DNA from: Actinomadura luteofluorescens
Lineage (GTDB): Bacteria > Actinomycetota > Actinomycetes > Streptosporangiales > Streptosporangiaceae
Direction: 5' to 3'
Assembly (NCBI RefSeq): GCF_013409365.1
Contig: NZ_JACCBA010000001.1
Coordinates: 7,688,001-7,752,000 of the forward strand
Length of the DNA: 64,000 nt
The notes under the pieces were generated by a model, which was not told where the DNA came from, did not search any database, and saw only the letters and a program-made list of their open reading frames with translations. Within the stretch, counting starts at the first letter, position 1. The number at the start of each line of letters is the position of its first letter. Of this stretch, positions 14,576-23,613 are shown piece by piece. The position numbers were made by a program, and so were the translations under genes.

Positions 14576-14676
14576 CTTCTTCTCCCGCTTCGGGCTCGCC
14601 GAACCTATACTCTTCGATGCCGGGCGGAGCGGTTTTGTGCCCGCGGGAATGCTCAATTTTTTTCGAGGGGGTACGA

Positions 14677-16197
14677 ATGGCGGGTCCGGTTCCCCTCACC
14701 GCGGCCGATCCCACCAGCCTCGGCCGCTGGGAGCTTCTCGGCCGGCTCGGCGCCGGCGGCCAGGGCACGGTGTACCTCGGCCGGCCCACCGAGACGGGCC
14801 GGGGGCCGTCCCGCGTCGCCGTCAAGCTGCTGCACGCCCAGCTCGTCGGGGACGCCGACGCGCGGGAGCGGTTCGTGCGCGAGATGGCCGTCCTGGAGCG
14901 GGTCGCCGGGTTCTGCACCGCGCAGATGCTCGCCGCCGACGTCGCGGGCGACCGCCCCTACATCGTCAGCGAGTACGTGCCGGGGCCGTCGCTGCGCGCC
15001 CTGGTCCGCGAGGAGGGCCCGCGCACCGGCGCGGCGCTCGACCGGCTCGCGATCAGCTCGGTGACGGCGCTGTCGGCGATCCACCGCGCGAACATCGTGC
15101 ACCGCGACCTCAAGCCGCAGAACGTGCTGATGGGCCCGGACGGGCCGCGCGTGATCGACTTCGGGATCGCCCGCGCGTTCGACGCGAGCGCGACGATGAC
15201 GAGCCAGGTCGTCGGGACGCCCGCCTACATGGCCCCCGAGCAGTTCACCGGGCGGGTCGGGCCGTCGGCCGACCTGTTCGCCTGGGCGAGCACCCTGCTG
15301 TTCGCCGCCACCGGCCAGGACCCCTTCGCGGGCGGCCCGCTGCCCGCGGTGATGTACCGGATCCTGCACGAGACGCCCGCCCTCGGCGCCCTGCCCGCCC
15401 CGCTCGCCGAGGTCGCCGCCGCCTGCCTCGCCAAGGAACCGCAGGCCCGCCCCACCTCCGAGGACGTCCTGCTGTGGCTGCTCGGCGAGAGCGAGCGGCA
15501 CGCCCGGCTGGAGATCCCCGCCGAGTACCTCACGGAGGACTTCGCCGGCTCGACGTCGCCGGTCCCGGGCCCCGCGCCCGAGGCCGCGCCGCAGCCGGCC
15601 GCCGACACGTTCGCCCAGACGTCCTGGGAGCAGACGCCGACCTGGCCCGGTCCGTCCACGTCGGCGCCCCCCGCACCCGCACCGCCATCGCCCGCACCGC
15701 CATCGCCCGGCCCCGCGCCCGCCCCCGGGCCTGCGGCCGGAGCCGCGGCCGCGCTCGGAACCGCGGCCGGCCCCGCGCCCGTGCCCGGCCCCGCGCCCGC
15801 TCGGCGGTTGCGGTCGCCCCGGACCCTGCGGCGCGGCCCGGCGGTCGTGGCGGGGCTGCTCCTCGCCGGGCTGCTCGCCGCCCTCGACGTCGCCGCCCTC
15901 GCGATCCTGATCGCCCGGCCGCCGCTCAGCGAGGGCCACCGGGGCGGCCTGCTGCCCGTGGTCGCCTCGTCCTTCGCCGTCGTCGCCGTCGTCACCCTGG
16001 TCGGGGTTATCCTGGCGTGGCGCGGCAGCCGGCCCGCCGCGGGGACGGTGATGGCCGCCCGCGTCGCCCGCGTCGCGATGTGGGCGGCCTGGGGCGCGCT
16101 CGTGGAGATCCAGCCGTCCGCCCTCGCCGGCCACGCCGTGCTGACCGCCCTGGTGGTGGTCCTCCTGGTCCGCGGCCTGTCCCGGTCACCCGTCTGA
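14677..16197 (+). CDS. Membrane Ser/Thr protein kinase
   Basis: The protein has a complete PknB-type kinase domain (about 16-280): glycine loop GAGGQGTVYLG, Lys50 in VAVKLL, catalytic Asp144 in VHRDLKPQN, DFGIAR, and GTPAYMAPEQ. A Pro/Ala-rich linker of about 120 residues contains the duplicated APPSP unit. The C terminus has about four hydrophobic segments (from about residue 395) in place of an extracellular PASTA sensor. It starts at ATG 14677 after GAGGGGG. It is divergent from the DUF6777 lipoprotein 100 bp away, a plausible external partner. Confidence 0.92.
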   Translation: MAGPVPLTAADPTSLGRWELLGRLGAGGQGTVYLGRPTETGRGPSRVAVKLLHAQLVGDADARERFVREMAVLERVAGFCTAQMLAADVAGDRPYIVSEYVPGPSLRALVREEGPRTGAALDRLAISSVTALSAIHRANIVHRDLKPQNVLMGPDGPRVIDFGIARAFDASATMTSQVVGTPAYMAPEQFTGRVGPSADLFAWASTLLFAATGQDPFAGGPLPAVMYRILHETPALGALPAPLAEVAAACLAKEPQARPTSEDVLLWLLGESERHARLEIPAEYLTEDFAGSTSPVPGPAPEAAPQPAADTFAQTSWEQTPTWPGPSTSAPPAPAPPSPAPPSPGPAPAPGPAAGAAAALGTAAGPAPVPGPAPARRLRSPRTLRRGPAVVAGLLLAGLLAALDVAALAILIARPPLSEGHRGGLLPVVASSFAVVAVVTLVGVILAWRGSRPAAGTVMAARVARVAMWAAWGALVEIQPSALAGHAVLTALVVVLLVRGLSRSPV

Positions 16198-16202
16198 GGC
16201 GC

Positions 16203-17396
16203 TCACCGGTCTCCCGCGGCGCGCTCGGACCACTCCTTGAGGTCGCGGCGCTCGATGGCCGCGGCCATCAGGCCGGGGAAGGCGTCGGGGGTGCACGCGA
16301 AGGCCGGGACGCCCATCGCGGCCAGGGCGGCCGCGTTGTCGTGGTCGTAGGCGGGCGCCCCCTCGTCCGACAGGGCGAGCAGCACGACGACCTGCACGCC
16401 CGCCGCCGTGAGCGCCGCGACCCGCTGCAGCATCTCGTCGCGGATCCCGCCCTCGTACAGGTCGCTGATCAGCACGAGGGTCGTCTCGGCCGGGCGCGCG
16501 ACCAGGCCCTGGCAGTACGCGACGGCGCGGTTGATGTCGGTGCCGCCGCCGAGCTGCGTGCCGAACAGCACCTCCACCGGGTCGTGGAGCTGGTCGGTGA
16601 GGTCCACGACGCTGGTGTCGAACACCACCAGCGACGTGCGCAGCGACCGCATCGACGCCAGCACCGCCCCGAAGACGCTCGCGTACACCACCGACGCCGC
16701 CATCGAGCCGCTCTGGTCGATCGCGAGCACCACGTCCCGCTTGACGGCCTGCCGCCGCCTGCCGTACCCGATCAGCCGCTCCGGCACGAGGGTGCCCTGG
16801 TCGGGCAGGTAGTGGCGCAGGTTCGCGCGGATCGTGCGGTCCCAGTCGACGTCGGCGAGCCGCCGCGGGCGCAGCACCCGCGCCGACCGGTCCAGGGCCC
16901 CGCCGACGGTCGAGCGCGTCCGCTGCGCGAGCCGCCGCTCCAGGTCGCGCACGACGGTGCGGACCACCGCGCGCGCCGACTCCCTGGCCTTGTCGGGCAG
17001 CACCCGGTTCAGTGACAGGAGCGTCCCGACGAGGTGGACGTCGGGCTCGACCGCGTCGAGCATCTCCGGCTCCAGCAGCAGCCGGGTGAGGTCGAGGCGG
17101 TCGATCGCGTCCTTCTGCATCACCCGCACGACGCTCGACGGGAAGTAGGCGCGGATGTCGCCGAGCCAGCGGGCCACGGAGGGCGCCGAGTCGCCGAGCC
17201 CGGCGCTGCGCCGCCCCGGCCGGGGCCGCCCCTCGCCGCCGCCGGCCCCGTAGAGCCGCTCCAGGGCGCCGTCCATGCGGACGTCGTCGCCGTCCAGCGC
17301 CACGCCCGTCCCGTCGGCCTGGTCACCGCCCAGTACCAGGCGCCAGCGCCGCAGCCGGTCGTCCGCGCCCTCGCCGGTCGGGCTCTCGTTCGTCAT
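16203..17396 (-). CDS. VWA domain protein (YehP-like)
   Basis: The 397-residue protein has a helical N-terminal half and a von Willebrand A domain with an intact MIDAS: DQSGSMAAS near residue 225, a Thr in GGGTDINRA and the Asp of LVLISDLYEGG. VWA partners of MoxR-type ATPases often act as metal-dependent adaptors. It is the last gene of the operon, and its ATG overlaps the DUF5682 stop (ATGA). E. coli YehP is the likely counterpart. It ends 5 bp from the convergent kinase gene. Confidence 0.87.
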   Translation of the reverse strand: MTNESPTGEGADDRLRRWRLVLGGDQADGTGVALDGDDVRMDGALERLYGAGGGEGRPRPGRRSAGLGDSAPSVARWLGDIRAYFPSSVVRVMQKDAIDRLDLTRLLLEPEMLDAVEPDVHLVGTLLSLNRVLPDKARESARAVVRTVVRDLERRLAQRTRSTVGGALDRSARVLRPRRLADVDWDRTIRANLRHYLPDQGTLVPERLIGYGRRRQAVKRDVVLAIDQSGSMAASVVYASVFGAVLASMRSLRTSLVVFDTSVVDLTDQLHDPVEVLFGTQLGGGTDINRAVAYCQGLVARPAETTLVLISDLYEGGIRDEMLQRVAALTAAGVQVVVLLALSDEGAPAYDHDNAAALAAMGVPAFACTPDAFPGLMAAAIERRDLKEWSERAAGDR

Positions 17397-19591
17397 GCAG
17401 GCCTCTCCCATCCGAGGATCCGCAGGGCCGTGGCGGTGGCCGGCGCCGCCCGGGCCTCGTCGACGTCGTCCTCCAGGGGCCGGGCCCGCCCGGCGGGGGC
17501 GCGGTCGCGGCGGCGGAGCCGCTCGCCGATGGCGCGGCGCTCGGCGGCGGGGTAGGCGCCGAACGTCCGGCGCAGCAGGGGCAGGACGTCGGTGAACGAG
17601 TCGGCGGGCAGTCCGGCGATCCACCCGTCGACGAGCCGCAGGAGCGCCTCGTCGTGCATGAGCAGCAGGCCGCCGCCCGCGAGGAAGCCCTCGACCCAGG
17701 CGGCGGCGCGGTCGGGCGCCTCCCCGACGGACACGGCGCGCGCCATCCGGTCGGGGACGTCGTGCAGCCGCCCGGCGTCGAGCAGAAGGCGGGTGAGGCG
17801 GCCCTCGATGAGGCCGTGCAGGGAGCCGGGGCGGCCGAGCAGGCCCTCCAGGGTGCGGCGCCAGCGCTCGATGTGGCCCTCGTCGTCGAGCAGGGCCAGG
17901 GCGCCGTGGACGGCGTCGACGTGCCCGAGGAACTCGCGGGCGGCGTCGTCGTCCAGCCCGGTGATCGCGGGCGGGAGCCCGACGCAGACGCGGACGACGA
18001 GGCCGTCGACCACCGCGGCGAGCGGGCCGGTGGAGGTGCCGCGGACGTCGCCGTAGCGCAGCGCGCGGACCAGCGCAGGCATGGCCGCCATCAGGTGCGC
18101 GACGTCGGCGTCGACCGCGGCGCGGTCGGCGAGCGCGCGCATGACCGCGGGGAGCGCCTCGCCGAGGTCGGCGAGCAGGCAGCGCTCGGCCACGGCGGTG
18201 AGGTCGGCGAGGGCCGTGGCGCTCTCGGCCGCCTCCCGCGCGCGGGCGGTGCTCGCGCCGCGCACGGTGGTGCCCCACGCGCTCGCCTCGATCAGCTCCA
18301 CGTCGAACTCGGGCCGCCAGAGCAGCGTCCACGTCTCGCGGAACGTGCCCTTGGAGCGGCTCTCCGATGGGACGCCCCAGTGCACGTCCAGCATGCGGAG
18401 CCGGTGCAGCAGGCGGCTGCGCTCCAGGTCGGTGGGCTTGCGCAGGTCGAGGTCCTGCTCCTTCTCGAGCGCGGACGGCCTGAGCCTGAGCCGCCGCTGC
18501 TCGGCCTGCAGGTCGCGCTGCAGCGGCACCATCGGGGTCCGCTCCGGGACGGCGCCGAGCCGCTCGCCGACGACCATCCGGTCCTGGATGAGCCGGACGG
18601 GCAGGTCGGCGCCCTCGCACAGCACGGCCCGCGTCGCCTCGGTGACCTCGTCCAGCCCGGCGAGGGGGCGCCCGCGCAGCGCGGCCAGGGCTTCGGCGAG
18701 CCGGACGGCCTCGATCACATGCGCGGAGGAGACGTGCAGGTCCTCCTCGCGCAGGACGCGGGCGGCGGCGGTCAGCCACCGCTCGATCGGGCGGTCGCGG
18801 GCCGCGAACAGGTGGTGGTACCAGCCGGGGGAGCGCACGCCGGCGCCGTACCCGGACCGCCCGGCGAGCCGCCCGTGCGTCCACGGCACCCACGTCATCG
18901 CGACCTTGGTCTTCGGCAGGCCGCGCAGCGTCTGGTCGTCGCGGCTCGCCGGGACCTTGGCGCGCAGCGCCGGGACGTGCCACGCCCCGCAGACCACGGC
19001 GACCCGCTCGTGGCCCTCCTTGAGCGCGCGGCGGACCGTCCGGCGCATGTGGGCCTCGCGCCGCTCCTCCCTCGGGGCCGGTTCGAGCTCGCCGCGCAGC
19101 TCCGCCATGGCCTCGGCGATGGCGGGGAACGGGGACGGGCCGCCGTGGCGGTGCTCGACCACGTCGTCCCACCACCGCTCGGCGTCGTCGTACCCGGCGG
19201 CCTTCGCCAGCCAGCCGAGCGGGTCGAGCCTGATCCCCTCCTCGGGCGGCTCCTCCTCGGCGGGCGCGAGCTGGTTCGCGGCGGGAAGGTCGCAGAACCG
19301 GACGGGCACGCCCGCCGACAGCGCGTACCTGACCGCCTGCCATTCCGGACTGAACTCGGCGAACGGCCAGAACGCGGCCCTGCGGTCGCCGTCGGCGGGC
19401 GCGGCGGAGTAGGCGAGCAGCGCGACCGGCGGCACCATCGCCGGATCGCCGGCCAGCTCCACGATCGCGTCGGCCTCGGGCGGCCCCTCGACCAGCACCG
19501 CGTCCGGCTTGAAGTCCTCCAGCGCACCCCGCAGCGCGCGGGCCGACCCCGGCCCGTGGTGCCGGATGCCGAAGACTTCGACCTGGCTCAA
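17393..19591 (-). CDS. DUF5682 family protein (YehM-like)
   Basis: The 732-residue protein begins EVFGIRHHGPGSARALR, a DUF5682 signature. The N-terminal half also resembles ChaN/TraB-like folds (DAVLVEGPPEAD; HERVAVVCGAWHVPAL), and the C-terminal half is helical. Its activity is unknown; it is the usual companion of YehL-type MoxR ATPases. I chose a TTG start at 19591: GGGAGGTC lies just upstream and the codon overlaps the ATPase stop (TTGA), matching the coupling seen throughout the operon. Confidence 0.85.
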   Translation of the reverse strand: MSQVEVFGIRHHGPGSARALRGALEDFKPDAVLVEGPPEADAIVELAGDPAMVPPVALLAYSAAPADGDRRAAFWPFAEFSPEWQAVRYALSAGVPVRFCDLPAANQLAPAEEEPPEEGIRLDPLGWLAKAAGYDDAERWWDDVVEHRHGGPSPFPAIAEAMAELRGELEPAPREERREAHMRRTVRRALKEGHERVAVVCGAWHVPALRAKVPASRDDQTLRGLPKTKVAMTWVPWTHGRLAGRSGYGAGVRSPGWYHHLFAARDRPIERWLTAAARVLREEDLHVSSAHVIEAVRLAEALAALRGRPLAGLDEVTEATRAVLCEGADLPVRLIQDRMVVGERLGAVPERTPMVPLQRDLQAEQRRLRLRPSALEKEQDLDLRKPTDLERSRLLHRLRMLDVHWGVPSESRSKGTFRETWTLLWRPEFDVELIEASAWGTTVRGASTARAREAAESATALADLTAVAERCLLADLGEALPAVMRALADRAAVDADVAHLMAAMPALVRALRYGDVRGTSTGPLAAVVDGLVVRVCVGLPPAITGLDDDAAREFLGHVDAVHGALALLDDEGHIERWRRTLEGLLGRPGSLHGLIEGRLTRLLLDAGRLHDVPDRMARAVSVGEAPDRAAAWVEGFLAGGGLLLMHDEALLRLVDGWIAGLPADSFTDVLPLLRRTFGAYPAAERRAIGERLRRRDRAPAGRARPLEDDVDEARAAPATATALRILGWERPA

Positions 19592-20721
19592 GAGACCTCC
19601 CGGCAGGCGCGGTAGAAGTCCCGCCACTCGGTGCGGTCGCGGACGACCGCCTCCAGGTACTCCTGCCACACGACGCGGTCCGACACCGGGTCCTGGACGA
19701 CGGCGCCGACGATCCCGCCCGCCACGTCGGCGGCGCGCAGCACCCCGTCGCCGAAGTGCGCGGCCAGGGCCAGCCCGCTGGTGATCACCGAGATGGCCTC
19801 GGCGGTGCTGAGGGTCCCGCTGGGCGACTTCAGCTTGGTGCGCCCGTCGGCGGTGGCCCCGGACCGCAGCTCCCGGAACACCGTGACGACGCGCCGGATC
19901 TCCTCCAGGCCGGCCGGGCTCTCGGGCAGCTCCAGCCCGGCGCCGATCTGGTCGACGCGGCGCGCGACGATCGCGACCTCGTCCTCGGCGGACTCCGGCA
20001 GCGGCAGCACGACCGTGTTGAACCGGCGGCGCAGCGCGCTGGACAGCTCGTTCACGCCCCGGTCGCGGTCGTTGGCGGTCGCGATGACCGTGAAGCCCTT
20101 GCGCGCCTGCACCTCGGTGTTCAGCTCGGGCACGGGCAGCGTCTTCTCCGACAGGACGGTGATGAGGGCGTCCTGGACGTCGGAGGGCATCCGGGTCAGC
20201 TCCTCGATGCGGGCGACGGCGCCGCGCCGCATCGCGCGCATCAGCGGGCTCTCCACCAGCGCCCGCTCCGAGGGGCCCTCGGCGAGCAGCCGCGCGTAGT
20301 TCCAGCCGTAGCGGATCGCCTCCTCCGCCGTGCCCGCCGTGCCCTGCACGAGCAGCGTGGAGTCGCCGCTGATCGCGGCGGCGAGGTGCTCCGACACCCA
20401 GGTCTTCGCCGTGCCGGGGACGCCGAGGAGCAGCAGCGCCCGGTCGGTCGCGAGCGTCGCCACCGCGACCTCCATCAGCCGGCGCGGCCCCACGTACTTC
20501 GGGCTGATCGCCGTGCCGTCCGGCAGTTCCCCGCCGAGCAGGTACGTGGTGACCGCCCAGGGCGACAGGCGCCAGCCGGGCGGGCGGGGCCGGTCGTCGT
20601 GCTCGGCCAGCCGCGCCAGCTCGCCGGCGTGCTCCTGCTCGGCGTGCGGCCGCAGCACGGCGCCCGCGGTCGGCGCGGGGGAGCCGTTGTCGAGGCCCCC
20701 CGGGCGTGCCTGTTCGGTCAC
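19588..20721 (-). CDS. MoxR-like AAA+ ATPase (YehL type)
   Basis: This 377-residue AAA+ protein has Walker A GVPGTAKT at 100-107, a Walker B-like VARIEEL near 169-175 (Glu-Glu in place of the usual Asp-Glu), and a sensor-1 Asn in VIATANDRDRG. The arginine-finger region ELSSALRRRFN is intact. It fits the YehL branch of the MoxR family, chaperone-like ATPases that work with VWA partners. GTG 20721 overlaps the DUF5691 stop (GTGA). It is the probable motor of the five-gene operon. Confidence 0.88.
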   Translation of the reverse strand: MTEQARPGGLDNGSPAPTAGAVLRPHAEQEHAGELARLAEHDDRPRPPGWRLSPWAVTTYLLGGELPDGTAISPKYVGPRRLMEVAVATLATDRALLLLGVPGTAKTWVSEHLAAAISGDSTLLVQGTAGTAEEAIRYGWNYARLLAEGPSERALVESPLMRAMRRGAVARIEELTRMPSDVQDALITVLSEKTLPVPELNTEVQARKGFTVIATANDRDRGVNELSSALRRRFNTVVLPLPESAEDEVAIVARRVDQIGAGLELPESPAGLEEIRRVVTVFRELRSGATADGRTKLKSPSGTLSTAEAISVITSGLALAAHFGDGVLRAADVAGGIVGAVVQDPVSDRVVWQEYLEAVVRDRTEWRDFYRACREVS

Positions 20722-22238
20722 TGGTCAAGCTCCTTCAGCATCTCGTCGCGGAAGCGCAGGGTCGCGATCAGATCGGTGACGGCCCGCGGGGCGGCCGGCC
20801 CGAGGGCCGCCAGGCGGGCCGCGGCGCCAGGGTCGAGCCGCTGGTCGGCGAGGCGGCACAGCTGCGTGATCAGGTGCTCGTCGCGGCGGGTGGGGCTTTC
20901 GGCGGACGCGCTGAGCGTCCCGACCACCGCCTCCGCGAGCGGCCCGGCCCACGGGCCGGGCACCCGTTCCAGGACCCGCAGCAGATCGGGCCGCCCCTCC
21001 ACCCAGCGGATCAGGTCGGCCGCCGCCGGGTCGCGCTCCGGGCCGGGCAGGACCGACAGCAGGTCGGCGAGGGCCTCCGGCTCGTCCACCATGACGCCGC
21101 CCCGGAGCAGCGCCCGCGCCCATGCGGTGTCGCGCTGGCCGAGGGCCGCGCGGGCCCAGCCGATGTGGACGTCGCGGCCCTCGGAGTCGGAGACGGGCAG
21201 GCACACGATCTCGACGGGCGGCAGCCCGAACAGCTCCGTCCAGGTGGACAGCGGGGTGCGGGCCAGGATCTCGCGCAGCCACGCGGCCCGCGTCCCCACC
21301 GGCGCGCCCCCGCCGCGCGGCGCGAACGACCCGGTCGGATGGAACGGGACGCCGTCGCGCGCCATGTCCTCGTCGTGGGCGCGGGGCGGCTCCACCCGGA
21401 TCCACGTCTGCCTGCGGCCCCGGACCGTGCGCTCCTCCGTCGACAGGCAGGCCCGGGCACGCGCCGCCATGCGCTCCCCGTACGCCGAGCCCGGCATGCG
21501 GGCCAGCAGGTCGGACGCGAGCTGCCGGACGTCCTTCCCCCGGTCGCCCAAGGCCGCTTCGAGGAATTCCTCGTCGTCCAGGGAGAGCCCGTGCGCGAAC
21601 GTGGCGACGAACGCCGCACGGTCGGGCGCCGGCTCCTTGGCCCAGGTCTCCTGGAGGAGTTCGCGCGCGCGCCGCGGCTCGGTCTCGCGCAGCATGGTCA
21701 GGTAGGCCACGCGCCGGTTGCGGGTGCCGGTCTCCCACACTTCGGGGCCGCCGCCGGGGTCGTCGCCCGAACCCACCAGGTAGGCCCAGTCGGTGTTCTG
21801 CAGGGCCAGCCACACGCCGCGCCGCCCGCACGCCCGAGCGATCGACGGCCGCAGCATCCGGTCGCTCCGCCCCCGCTCCAGCAGGTCGGGCAGCGACTGG
21901 GCGGGCACCCGCAGGCCACGGGCGGCCGCCGCGTCCAGCCATTCGGGCAGCACCCGGATCTGCTCGCCGCCGAGGATCCTTCGCAGCCGGGCCGCCGCCG
22001 CCCTCGCGACCGCCGGGACGTCCTCCACCGGGGCCAGCGCCACCGGCTCGGCGGGCGTGCCCGGCGGGACCTGCCCCGCCCGCCGCCGGACGGCCAGCAG
22101 CGCCGCCTGGTCGAGCAGCCGCCCCGCCTTGTCGCCGTCACCGTCCCCGTCGCCGCCGGGCGCCTCCGCCAGGACGGGCGGGTCGCGGCGCTCGGTGCCG
22201 AGCAGCGCGGCGGTGACGTGCTCGTCCCACGTCGTCAC
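20718..22238 (-). CDS. DUF5691 family protein
   Basis: The 506-residue protein starts at a GTG overlapping the SWIM-gene stop (GTGA) with TTWDEHVTAALLGTERR, characteristic of DUF5691. It is rich in helical-repeat-like segments (RRARELLQETW, DEEFLEAALGDR, RQLASDLLARMPGSA) that resemble HEAT-type scaffolds. A short Gly-Asp run (GGDGDGDGD) lies near residue 30. No catalytic motif is visible. It probably serves as a scaffold or substrate adaptor for the downstream MoxR ATPase; this is inferred from gene order only. Confidence 0.82.
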   Translation of the reverse strand: MTTWDEHVTAALLGTERRDPPVLAEAPGGDGDGDGDKAGRLLDQAALLAVRRRAGQVPPGTPAEPVALAPVEDVPAVARAAAARLRRILGGEQIRVLPEWLDAAAARGLRVPAQSLPDLLERGRSDRMLRPSIARACGRRGVWLALQNTDWAYLVGSGDDPGGGPEVWETGTRNRRVAYLTMLRETEPRRARELLQETWAKEPAPDRAAFVATFAHGLSLDDEEFLEAALGDRGKDVRQLASDLLARMPGSAYGERMAARARACLSTEERTVRGRRQTWIRVEPPRAHDEDMARDGVPFHPTGSFAPRGGGAPVGTRAAWLREILARTPLSTWTELFGLPPVEIVCLPVSDSEGRDVHIGWARAALGQRDTAWARALLRGGVMVDEPEALADLLSVLPGPERDPAAADLIRWVEGRPDLLRVLERVPGPWAGPLAEAVVGTLSASAESPTRRDEHLITQLCRLADQRLDPGAAARLAALGPAAPRAVTDLIATLRFRDEMLKELDQ

Positions 22239-23555
22239 AGGATCACCGTCCCCTCGTCGTCGTGCCACGCGGCCAGCGGGCGCAGGCCGCGCGGGCGCCA
22301 CTCACCGGCCAGGGTGACCGGCCCGCCGCCCGACAGCGCGAGCAGCCGCCACGGATCGCCCATCCGGAGCGGCAGCGAGTCACCGGCGCCGTCGACGACG
22401 TGCAGGTCTCCTCCTTCGGTGCGCGCGACGCGGACGTCCTCCAGCGTCGCGGGCCAGCGGTCCAGCCACGGGTCGAGCGCGAGGGCCGCCGCGTGCTCGT
22501 CCAGGAAGCCCCGGACGGACGTCCCCGCGGGCGCGCCCCGCATGGGCGACCCGTACCGGTCGGCGACCAGGGCCCGCAGCGGCTGCCCTCCCGGGTAGAA
22601 GGCCAGCTCCGCATCGACCTGCGTACCCACGACGAGCGAGCCGTCCAGGGACGTGCCCGGCGCGGCGAAGGACAGCACGAGCGCGGGGCGCCCCGTCCGG
22701 TTCCCGCGGAGCCACACCCGCCGCGTGGTGAGAAGGTCTTGCGCGGTGTCGCGCGACCCCGTCACCGACCACAGGTCCCGGACGCGCTCCCCGCCGGACA
22801 GCACCTCCTCCTGCGGGACGGTGAACCCGACCCGGGAGCGGACGGTCTCGCGCAGCCCTTCGGGCAACTCCTCCTGCCGCTGGTAGGCCCGGACGAGCAG
22901 CCGCAGCAACGCGTACTCCTCCAGCAGCCGGCCCGGCCAGCCGGGCCGGCGCGGGATCGCGGCCAGGCCCCTGACCAGCCCCGCGAGCGCCCCCGCCTGC
23001 GCGTCGACGAGCCGCCGCGCCGCGTCGTCCCACAGCCGGTAGGGGGCCTTCTCCGCCTGCGCGAGCCCGTGCGCGACCTGGTCGCGGAGCCACTGGTCCA
23101 GCTCGGCGAGCCCGTCGTCGACCCGCCTGGCCCGCCGCTCCGCCGTCTTCGGATCACGGGTTCTAGCCGCCGATGAGGCCCGCCGCTCGGCCGCCCGGTC
23201 GGCCCGGCCCCCGCCGGTCCGCGACCCACTCGGCGACCCACCCCGGACGATTCCCCGCACCCCCCGGAGCGCCTTCGGCTTGTACGAGGCCGTCCGACCA
23301 GAGGAACAAGAGCGCCAGAGCGTGCTTGCACGGGAACTTGCGGCTCGGGCACGTGCACCGGAACGCCGGGCCCGTCAGGTCGGCGCACGTCCGGTAGGCG
23401 GACTTGCCGCTGCCCCGGCACTCGCCCCACACGGCCTCGTCGTCGCACCCCGTCGCCGCCCACTTGGCGGGCTTGGCGACGCCGCCCGCCGCCCTGGCGG
23501 ACGACGCGTCGGGCGCGAGCCCGAGCACCTGCTCACGAGACCACCGATCCGTCAC
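22235..23555 (-). pseudogene. SWIM zinc-finger protein (YehQ-like), split by a +1 frameshift
   Basis: The N-terminal frame (23555 to stop at 23163) contains the SWIM motif CTCPSRKFPCKH (Cys67, Cys69, Cys76, His78) followed by LALLFLWSDG and WVAEWVADRRG, then meets a TAG. The rest of the family-like sequence (ADRAAERRASSAAR through to the C terminus at 22235) continues in another frame. The switch falls at a run of five C on the plus strand (23208-23212). Removing one base gives an uninterrupted protein of about 440 residues. It is either a sequencing error or a recent mutation. This is the first gene of the operon; its stop overlaps the DUF5691 start. Confidence 0.8.
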
Positions 23556-23613
23556 ACCCCCGAAACTATCGGCGACCTCGGACAGTCGGCGGCATCGCGG
23601 CCCCGGTCCGGCG

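Follow-up and report, generated by a model that had tools for sequence, protein, structure and literature searches.

A five-gene MoxR-VWA set in Actinomadura luteofluorescens and a predicted DNA-damage-type promoter among its relatives

The five genes and their junctions

The window analyzed here is a stretch of 64,000 nucleotides on the 9.6-Mb chromosome of Actinomadura luteofluorescens (Actinomadura/Spirillospora). On its minus strand it carries a set of 5 genes encoding, in order, a SWIM zinc-finger protein, a DUF5691 protein, a MoxR-type AAA+ ATPase, a DUF5682 protein, and a VWA protein of the CoxE type. A first reading made from the letters of the window (the sequence-only reading) had called this a MoxR-type system, and Pfam matches all 5 of the domains it named. 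Both DUF families and the Escherichia coli yeh operon, to which part of the set is homologous, are already known, by name only. In many actinobacterial relatives the genes lie behind a promoter motif of the type that precedes DNA repair genes.

The DUF5691 protein (20718..22238, minus strand, 506 aa) matches PF18944 with 475 bits and is predicted to be an all-helical scaffold resembling HEAT/ARM repeats. The motor (19588..20721, minus strand, 377 aa, YehL-like) scores 137 bits against AAA_5, where the cut-off is 22. In an alignment of 10 sequences its core residues are conserved, including Walker A GxPGTAK, E173/E174, N217, and R232/R233; A105 is kept in at least 9 of the 10, and the other listed residues are invariant. 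Its best match among solved structures by sequence is Midasin. The DUF5682 protein (17393..19591, minus strand, 732 aa from a TTG start, YehM-like) scores 938 bits against PF18934, and its structural model, with a predicted local distance difference test (pLDDT) score of 85.6, has an N-terminal alpha/beta domain over residues ~1-245 followed by a helical repeat. H11, H12, E35, E83, R178, E179, and H205 are invariant over 11 diverse DUF5682 sequences. The VWA protein (16203..17396, minus strand, 397 aa) matches VWA_CoxE with 187.5 bits, and in alignment its metal ion-dependent adhesion site (MIDAS) is intact, with DxSxS at 227-231, T286, and D312; the threonine is replaced by asparagine in Deinococcus. 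Searches of solved structures by sequence gave nothing useful for DUF5682 or VWA, and Foldseek found no PDB match at E < 0.001 for the DUF5682 or DUF5691 model.

The SWIM gene had been taken as a single open gene, but in this assembly a frameshift splits it. The first piece (23163..23555, minus strand) has a GTG start and ends prematurely after 130 aa; it matches PF04434 with 28.2 bits against a cut-off of 19.6. Its CxC...CxH finger is kept in relatives in the alignment, and the pattern CxC-xn-CxH occurs in this piece only. The second piece (22235..23161, minus strand; the mechanically called open reading frame, ORF, is 22235-23260) holds the C-terminal part in a different frame. tblastn follows frame -3 and then frame -1, with the break somewhere from 23161 to 23223. 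Since an intact 439-aa A. luteofluorescens protein (P0121) matches 95% of the second piece at 99% identity, the split is either a strain-level mutation or an assembly error.

All 4 junctions have the 4-bp overlaps that had been described (GTGA, GTGA, TTGA, and ATGA). Across related loci, an in-frame 4-bp stop/start overlap is found at 152 of 266 same-strand junctions (29/69, 36/46, 41/77, and 46/74), compared to 26 of 302 co-directional neighbor pairs at the same loci (pairs within 600 bp, from a simple gene caller). Hence, the overlaps exceed chance and are a conserved habit of the system.

Conservation, modules, and the yeh-type version

A pattern scan with one genome per species gave at least 588 confirmed DUF5682 relatives, from which the closest 80 were kept as loci. 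Because of that choice these 80 are by selection of the A type, that is, the version with DUF5691. The whole set of 5 is found in 66 of the 80, with 44 having the window's order on a single strand, and 22 having SWIM and DUF5691 as a separate divergent pair beside AAA-DUF5682-VWA, although in locus L105 the pair is 6.5 kb off. At 2 loci (L075 and L092) a gap of 1.3-1.4 kb separates AAA from DUF5682. Another 12 loci have 2-4 genes of the set, many being truncated by contig ends, and 2 cyanobacterial loci (L099 and L111) have DUF5682 alone, while 3 cyanobacterial loci (L100, L107, and L136) have all 5. The set recurs in Actinomycetota, Deinococcota, Pseudomonadota, Bacteroidota, and Cyanobacteria. 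In Rhizobium, the gene order is exact; Deinococcus taeanensis has the same annotated order plus one small extra ORF; Methylosinus has the first 4 genes annotated in an incomplete gene table; and Hymenobacter has SWIM-DUF5691 as a single protein and an extra gene between AAA and DUF5682. The system is thus conserved as had been supposed, and the comparison of gene order across genomes that the sequence-only reading had proposed comes out in its favor, with the divergent arrangement as the second layout.

The pairing of DUF5691 with DUF5682 can also be seen from genome to genome. DUF5691 is over the cut-off in 9 of 149 genomes across the phylum, each time with a DUF5682 gene no more than ~3.3 kb away; one more of the 149 has DUF5682 only, and one has only a DUF5691 match below the cut-off. 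DUF5682 is present in 24/24 Actinomadura genomes and in 0/16 relatives from other families. It is found in 117 of 121 Streptomyces genomes, with the best match below E = 1e-225, the A-type range, in 110 of the 121. At least 7986 DUF5682 homologs were scored in one search. In Streptomycetaceae, the set occupies a fixed core site between a UvrD-type helicase gene and sucC-sucD (names assigned by eye), with a sucC-like gene in 24 loci and a sucD-like gene in 23.

That spread bears on whether this is an anti-phage or conflict system, in which a MoxR-VWA switch would arm an effector, as had been suggested on sequence grounds. Such switches do occur in predicted conflict systems, some copies of the set are on plasmids, and the MoxR-vWA ternary conflict systems (PMC7159879) likewise combine MoxR, VWA, and a third component. 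However, those systems have a beta-propeller, VMAP, or iSTAND part, and Pfam matched none of these in the operon; bpMoxR (PF20030) scored 20.4 bits against a cut-off of 27. PADLOC run on 6 proteins of the window gave one weak match (IetA, E = 0.0055), a scan of viral contigs gave 14 pattern matches with none confirmed as a DUF5682 relative, and no phage record matched DUF5691. Among the 80 nearest neighbors at 45 loci outside Streptomycetaceae, 44 PADLOC families match at E = 1e-10, a count that has no background control. The 25 of these 44 that were listed have 2-3 members each, PD-T4-6, mad2, mad6, C3a189, and MkoA among them, and we read them as ordinary kinases and methyltransferases; Pfam on the neighbors finds transporters, regulators, and enzymes, with kinases in 2 and methyltransferases in 3. 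The association with defense islands that had been proposed as a check therefore gave no clear island in this control-free test. Given the PADLOC result on the operon, the viral and phage searches, and the near-universal presence in Actinomadura and Streptomyces, together with the fixed site in Streptomycetaceae, we reject the defense role, and consider it highly improbable.

The set divides into 2 modules. SWIM and DUF5691 are fused in one ORF at 5 actinobacterial loci (L080, L116, L121, L125, and L130), and DUF5682 is fused to VWA in Streptomyces atratus (1255 aa). Along with the divergent layout, the fusions mark off SWIM-DUF5691 from AAA-DUF5682-VWA, and they argue for physical partnership of the fused proteins.

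The genome of the window also has a yeh-type version, consisting of several DUF4132 genes and then YehL-, YehM-, YehP-, and YehQ-like genes. The E. coli counterpart, yehI-yehL-yehM-yehP-yehQ, belongs to the YehL subfamily of MoxR AAA+ proteins and holds homologous AAA, DUF5682, and VWA genes in one cluster, with a SWIM protein present. Identities between the window and an E. coli plasmid copy are 40% for YehL, 25% for YehM, and 35% for YehP. The set had been described as matching yehLMPQ plus DUF5691, and this stands for the homology of AAA, DUF5682, and VWA to YehL, YehM, and YehP, but not for the SWIM protein, which has no detectable homology to YehQ (hhalign probability 2.8%). Yeh-type loci have DUF4132 where the window set has DUF5691, in a different gene order, and DUF5691 has no detectable homology to DUF4132 (hhalign probability 0.4%). 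With no profile similarity in either comparison, we rejected DUF5691 as a DUF4132 relative and SWIM as a YehQ relative. AAA-DUF5682-VWA is the sole module detectably common to both versions.

Some further arrangements were seen in this survey. Yeh-type operons with several DUF4132 genes are at L208 (1542-18828) and L209, loci from G000 (the window's genome) and G002. On the multiresistance plasmid NZ_CP103756 of E. coli (L059), the yehI-yehL-M-P-Q block is flanked on both sides by an IS26-family transposase gene. A third version, type C, has weakly matching DUF5682-like genes at L044-L050 and L057, with L057 fusing DUF5682 and VWA.

A DNA-damage-type motif upstream of the set

A LexA/RecA-independent type of DNA-damage promoter, called RecA-NDp, has been described with the consensus tTGTCRgtg - 8 nt - TannnT (PMC5656591). 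In mycobacteria its regulator is PafBC (PMC6789036, PMC8223512, PMC11804915), and in Streptomyces the same promoter type precedes recA and the macrodomain gene SCO6735 (PMC5087735). An intergenic alignment of 27 divergent loci has 2 strongly conserved inverted blocks. On the SWIM side, TTGTCRGTG-N8-TANNNT is exact in 24 of 28 divergent loci and has one mismatch in the other 4, all 28 being Streptomycetaceae by genus name. On the AAA side, the motif is present in 27/28, with T or C as the first base of the second box (TA or CA).

Since the motif was first spotted in the divergent loci, independent tests are provided by 3 places where it was not found first: the same-strand loci, the yeh-type operon, and a genome-wide search. 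Among 43 same-strand loci, the match is exact in 5, has one mismatch in 7, 2 mismatches in 9, and 3 or more in 22. These 43 include 3 cyanobacterial loci; L084 was left out for an upstream region that is too short, though it has an exact match. In 24 of the 43, the best match is 28-32 nt before the SWIM start, a position that would give a leaderless transcript. Background windows from the same loci outside of the system (n = 2098) gave 1 exact match, 3 with one mismatch, 16 with 2, and 185 with 3. An earlier background that did not exclude the system had 11 exact matches in 2400, and shuffled upstream regions had 0 exact in 2100.

The window's own candidate site (23563..23585, minus strand) reads CTGTCCGAG-N8-TAGTTT and begins 30 nt before the SWIM start codon. 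It is a degenerate match to the RecA-NDp/PafBC type with 3 mismatches, and because matches of that quality are common in the background (185/2098), the site is carried by its position and its relatives rather than by its score. Both the position and the TAGTTT box recur in Actinomadura relatives L033, L035, L038, L051, and L061, while L034 has TAGGTT and L037 differs.

Genome-wide, there are 4 exact sites in G000, 11 in G002, 3 in G020, and 21 in G061, compared with 0, 0, 0, and 1 for the reversed pattern in the same genomes. One of the 21 sites in G061 is inside the system, between DUF5691 and DUF5682. The yeh-type operon, whose first gene encodes DUF4132, has an exact motif 31 nt upstream of that gene's start codon in both G000 (1 of the 4 sites) and G002 (1 of the 11). 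Pfam was run on 10 downstream proteins picked by eye (7 of 12 G061 loci and 3 of 4 G000 loci). The G061 genes behind an exact motif encode UvrA, UvrB, UDG, O6-methylguanine methyltransferase (OGT), RecD2, a DEAD helicase, and GmrSD_N; those in G000 encode DUF4132, an AlkZ-like protein (L210, 590-1993), and Macro (L212, 552-998). The motif is that of the PafBC/RecA-NDp regulon of actinobacteria (PMC5656591, PMC8223512, PMC5087735), and is common to repair genes in the searched genomes. Furthermore, a DUF4132 gene of Deinococcus radiodurans is strongly induced on depletion of DdrO (PMC8533742), which points the same way for the yeh-type version.

Stress had been named alongside defense as a possible setting for the system, and this part gains from the DNA-damage-type promoter in the relatives. 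The regulatory link to that promoter is a new result; in the open-licence literature, to which all of our literature searches were confined, we found no paper among the matches listed that puts the operon in a DNA-damage regulon. The motif being shared by 2 paralogous versions of the operon and by uvrA, uvrB, and other repair genes offers a handle on what MoxR ATPases of the YehL branch do. PMC9380542 left open whether there is a PafBC-type response in Streptomyces, and the motif has a bearing on this too.

A working model, its rivals, and SCO4804

We read the operon as an ATP-driven MoxR-VWA remodeling machine, working with DUF5682 and with SWIM-DUF5691, that is predicted to be DNA-damage-inducible in actinobacteria, and we give this reading a probability of about one half. 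It builds on things observed: gene content and order, motor and MIDAS residues, the fusions, and the promoter in relatives and before the yeh-type operon. Since in many relatives the genes directly follow the signal of DNA repair genes, a role for the machine in coping with DNA damage is likely. The mechanism can be modeled on NorQ-NorD (PMC9976466, PMC13036017), a metal-insertion pair that is also made of a MoxR ATPase and a VWA protein with a MIDAS. DNA damage, probably acting through PafBC, would raise expression of the 5 genes. By analogy, the AAA hexamer may turn the VWA protein as NorQ does NorD, with the VWA MIDAS holding the DUF5682 protein. DUF5682, with a TraB-like and possibly metal-binding N-terminal domain, would either do the work itself, as a hydrolase-like component, or be what the motor activates. 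SWIM-DUF5691 would serve for targeting, directing the machine to nucleic acid or to a protein bound there. On damaged or over-wound DNA, a protein might in this way be removed, released, or reactivated. The window set is unlike NorQ-NorD in having a conserved DUF5682 gene between the motor and VWA, and in having the extra SWIM-DUF5691 module; no linked client enzyme was seen with it.

The same comparison leads to a different proposal, namely that this is a chaperone for cofactor insertion or enzyme maturation, in which DUF5682, or a metalloenzyme encoded elsewhere, is remodeled by AAA and VWA for entry of a metal or cofactor, as in NorQD and CoxDE. The promoter would then reflect no more than a need for the client under stress. 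Metal insertion by MoxR-VWA pairs is known, the invariant histidine and glutamate residues of DUF5682 could bind a metal, and the VWA MIDAS is intact. The fusion of DUF5682 with VWA, however, suggests a built-in part and not a passing client. The neighbor families that do recur, in 14-24 loci and including sucCD and a B12-binding protein, are those of Streptomycetaceae, where they reflect a constant position on the chromosome; among the remaining loci, no neighbor family is common to more than 9. We had tried the B12-binding protein and sucCD as a cofactor link in Streptomyces, and read them as synteny confined to the Streptomycetaceae loci (gene names by eye). On balance, the chaperone proposal is somewhat unlikely.

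A more specific form of the remodeling-machine reading is that its substrates are proteins jammed on DNA, for example trapped topoisomerases or crosslinked proteins, which it would clear. SWIM-DUF5691 would find the site, the MoxR motor would pull through VWA, and the TraB-like DUF5682 would cut or unlock the protein, the whole being switched on from the PafBC promoter and existing in 2 versions, one carrying DUF5691 (A) and the other, yeh, carrying DUF4132 (B). Such a machine would do the work that Spartan/Wss1 and p97 do together in eukaryotes, without sharing their ancestry. We regard this specific form as quite unlikely.

A mutant of Streptomyces coelicolor is of interest here, if SCO4804 is the DUF5682 protein of that species, as we infer from its length and its place in the conserved block. 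Its 815 aa fall within the 747-872 aa of DUF5682 in the divergent loci, the flanking gaps are of the same order, and no other gene of the set reaches such a length there. The sucC gene is presumably SCO4808. The position before sucC and the phyla stated to have homologs in PMC8120823 also favor the assignment; the family of SCO4804 is not named in the excerpts of that paper, and no S. coelicolor name is among the 120 DUF5682 relatives listed. With a transposon in sco4804, the topA transcript is at ~70%, TopA protein is at ~50%, and gyrB is lowered, while overexpression of sco4804 raises topA promoter activity; conversely, TopA depletion raises sco4804 eightfold, with its neighbors up too (all PMC8120823). 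A machine acting on DNA-bound proteins or on over-wound DNA would explain the changed topA and gyrB expression in the absence of TopA binding, but the change could equally be a distant effect. Alternatively, SCO4804 and its partners might be a transcription-linked regulator that directly sets topoisomerase gene expression, which would fit the alterations of topA and gyrB by both disruption and overexpression. The authors, though, term the effect indirect (PMC8120823), DNA binding by SCO4804 is non-specific and was abolished by poly(dI-dC), and a motor plus a VWA protein would be unusual for a transcription factor, so that a direct regulator seems very unlikely.

A number of observations weigh against a DNA-damage-inducible remodeling machine. 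As to the promoter, the 24/28 count is not independent, having come from the same divergent loci in which the motif was spotted; 22 of the 43 same-strand loci have 3 or more mismatches; and the window's own site has 3. The motif is missing from the 3 cyanobacterial loci (3-4 mismatches), and a search with strict SOS-type patterns upstream of 12 non-actinobacterial genes (Deinococcus, Rhizobium-type, Methylosinus, Hymenobacter, cyanobacterial, and E. coli) found none. An initial search reported in PMC9380542 had the PafBC motif seemingly not conserved in Streptomyces venezuelae. In G002, 8 of the 11 exact sites (L185, L189, L192, L194, L198, L200, L202, and L206) precede ORFs that by eye look like IS605-type transposases; exact sites are therefore not all repair promoters. 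As to the mutant, PMC8120823 reports that the sco4804 insertion lowers sco4805 too, so either gene may be responsible, that SCO4804 bound neither TopA nor, in a specific manner, topA DNA, and that supercoiling was unchanged in the mutant. As to the targeting arm, the finger is lost in some relatives and therefore seems not always needed. The N-terminal SWIM part was not found by tblastn in 6 loci (L036, L039, L062, L074, L090, and L123), and among 120 SWIM homologs listed, 18 are shorter than 360 aa with no SWIM domain in the precomputed column, with the proviso that some of the 18 are on short contigs and some full-length entries likewise have no SWIM label. Finally, the sequence-only reading had called DUF5682 ChaN-like, which was a fair guess in that the N-terminal domain looks TraB-like, but the likeness is weak in sequence, with Pfam giving TraB in 1 of 11 members at E = 0.18 and hhalign giving probabilities of 1.5 and 9.5; a 6-member TraB profile found no TraB structure among solved structures. 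The hydrolase superfamily in question, TraB/TIKI/ChaN-like, is characterized by a common fold and by H...E...GxxH residues.

The DUF5682 family is large and includes E. coli YehM, yet it is absent by name from the 5.39 million papers searched, as is DUF5691; no study of the yeh operon was among the matches listed for the yeh names (6, and 40 of 650), and SCO4801-4806 are mentioned in one paper.

A few neighboring features may be added. The exact motifs before IS605-like ORFs in G002 may be chance captures or may belong to a damage-induced transposon. Upstream of the SWIM gene, from 23614 upward on the minus strand, is a gene whose counterpart in L061 (5190-5942) is Peptidase_M50B. At the other end of the set, a Ser/Thr protein kinase gene (14617-16197, plus strand) runs toward the VWA gene, and only 5 bases separate the two.

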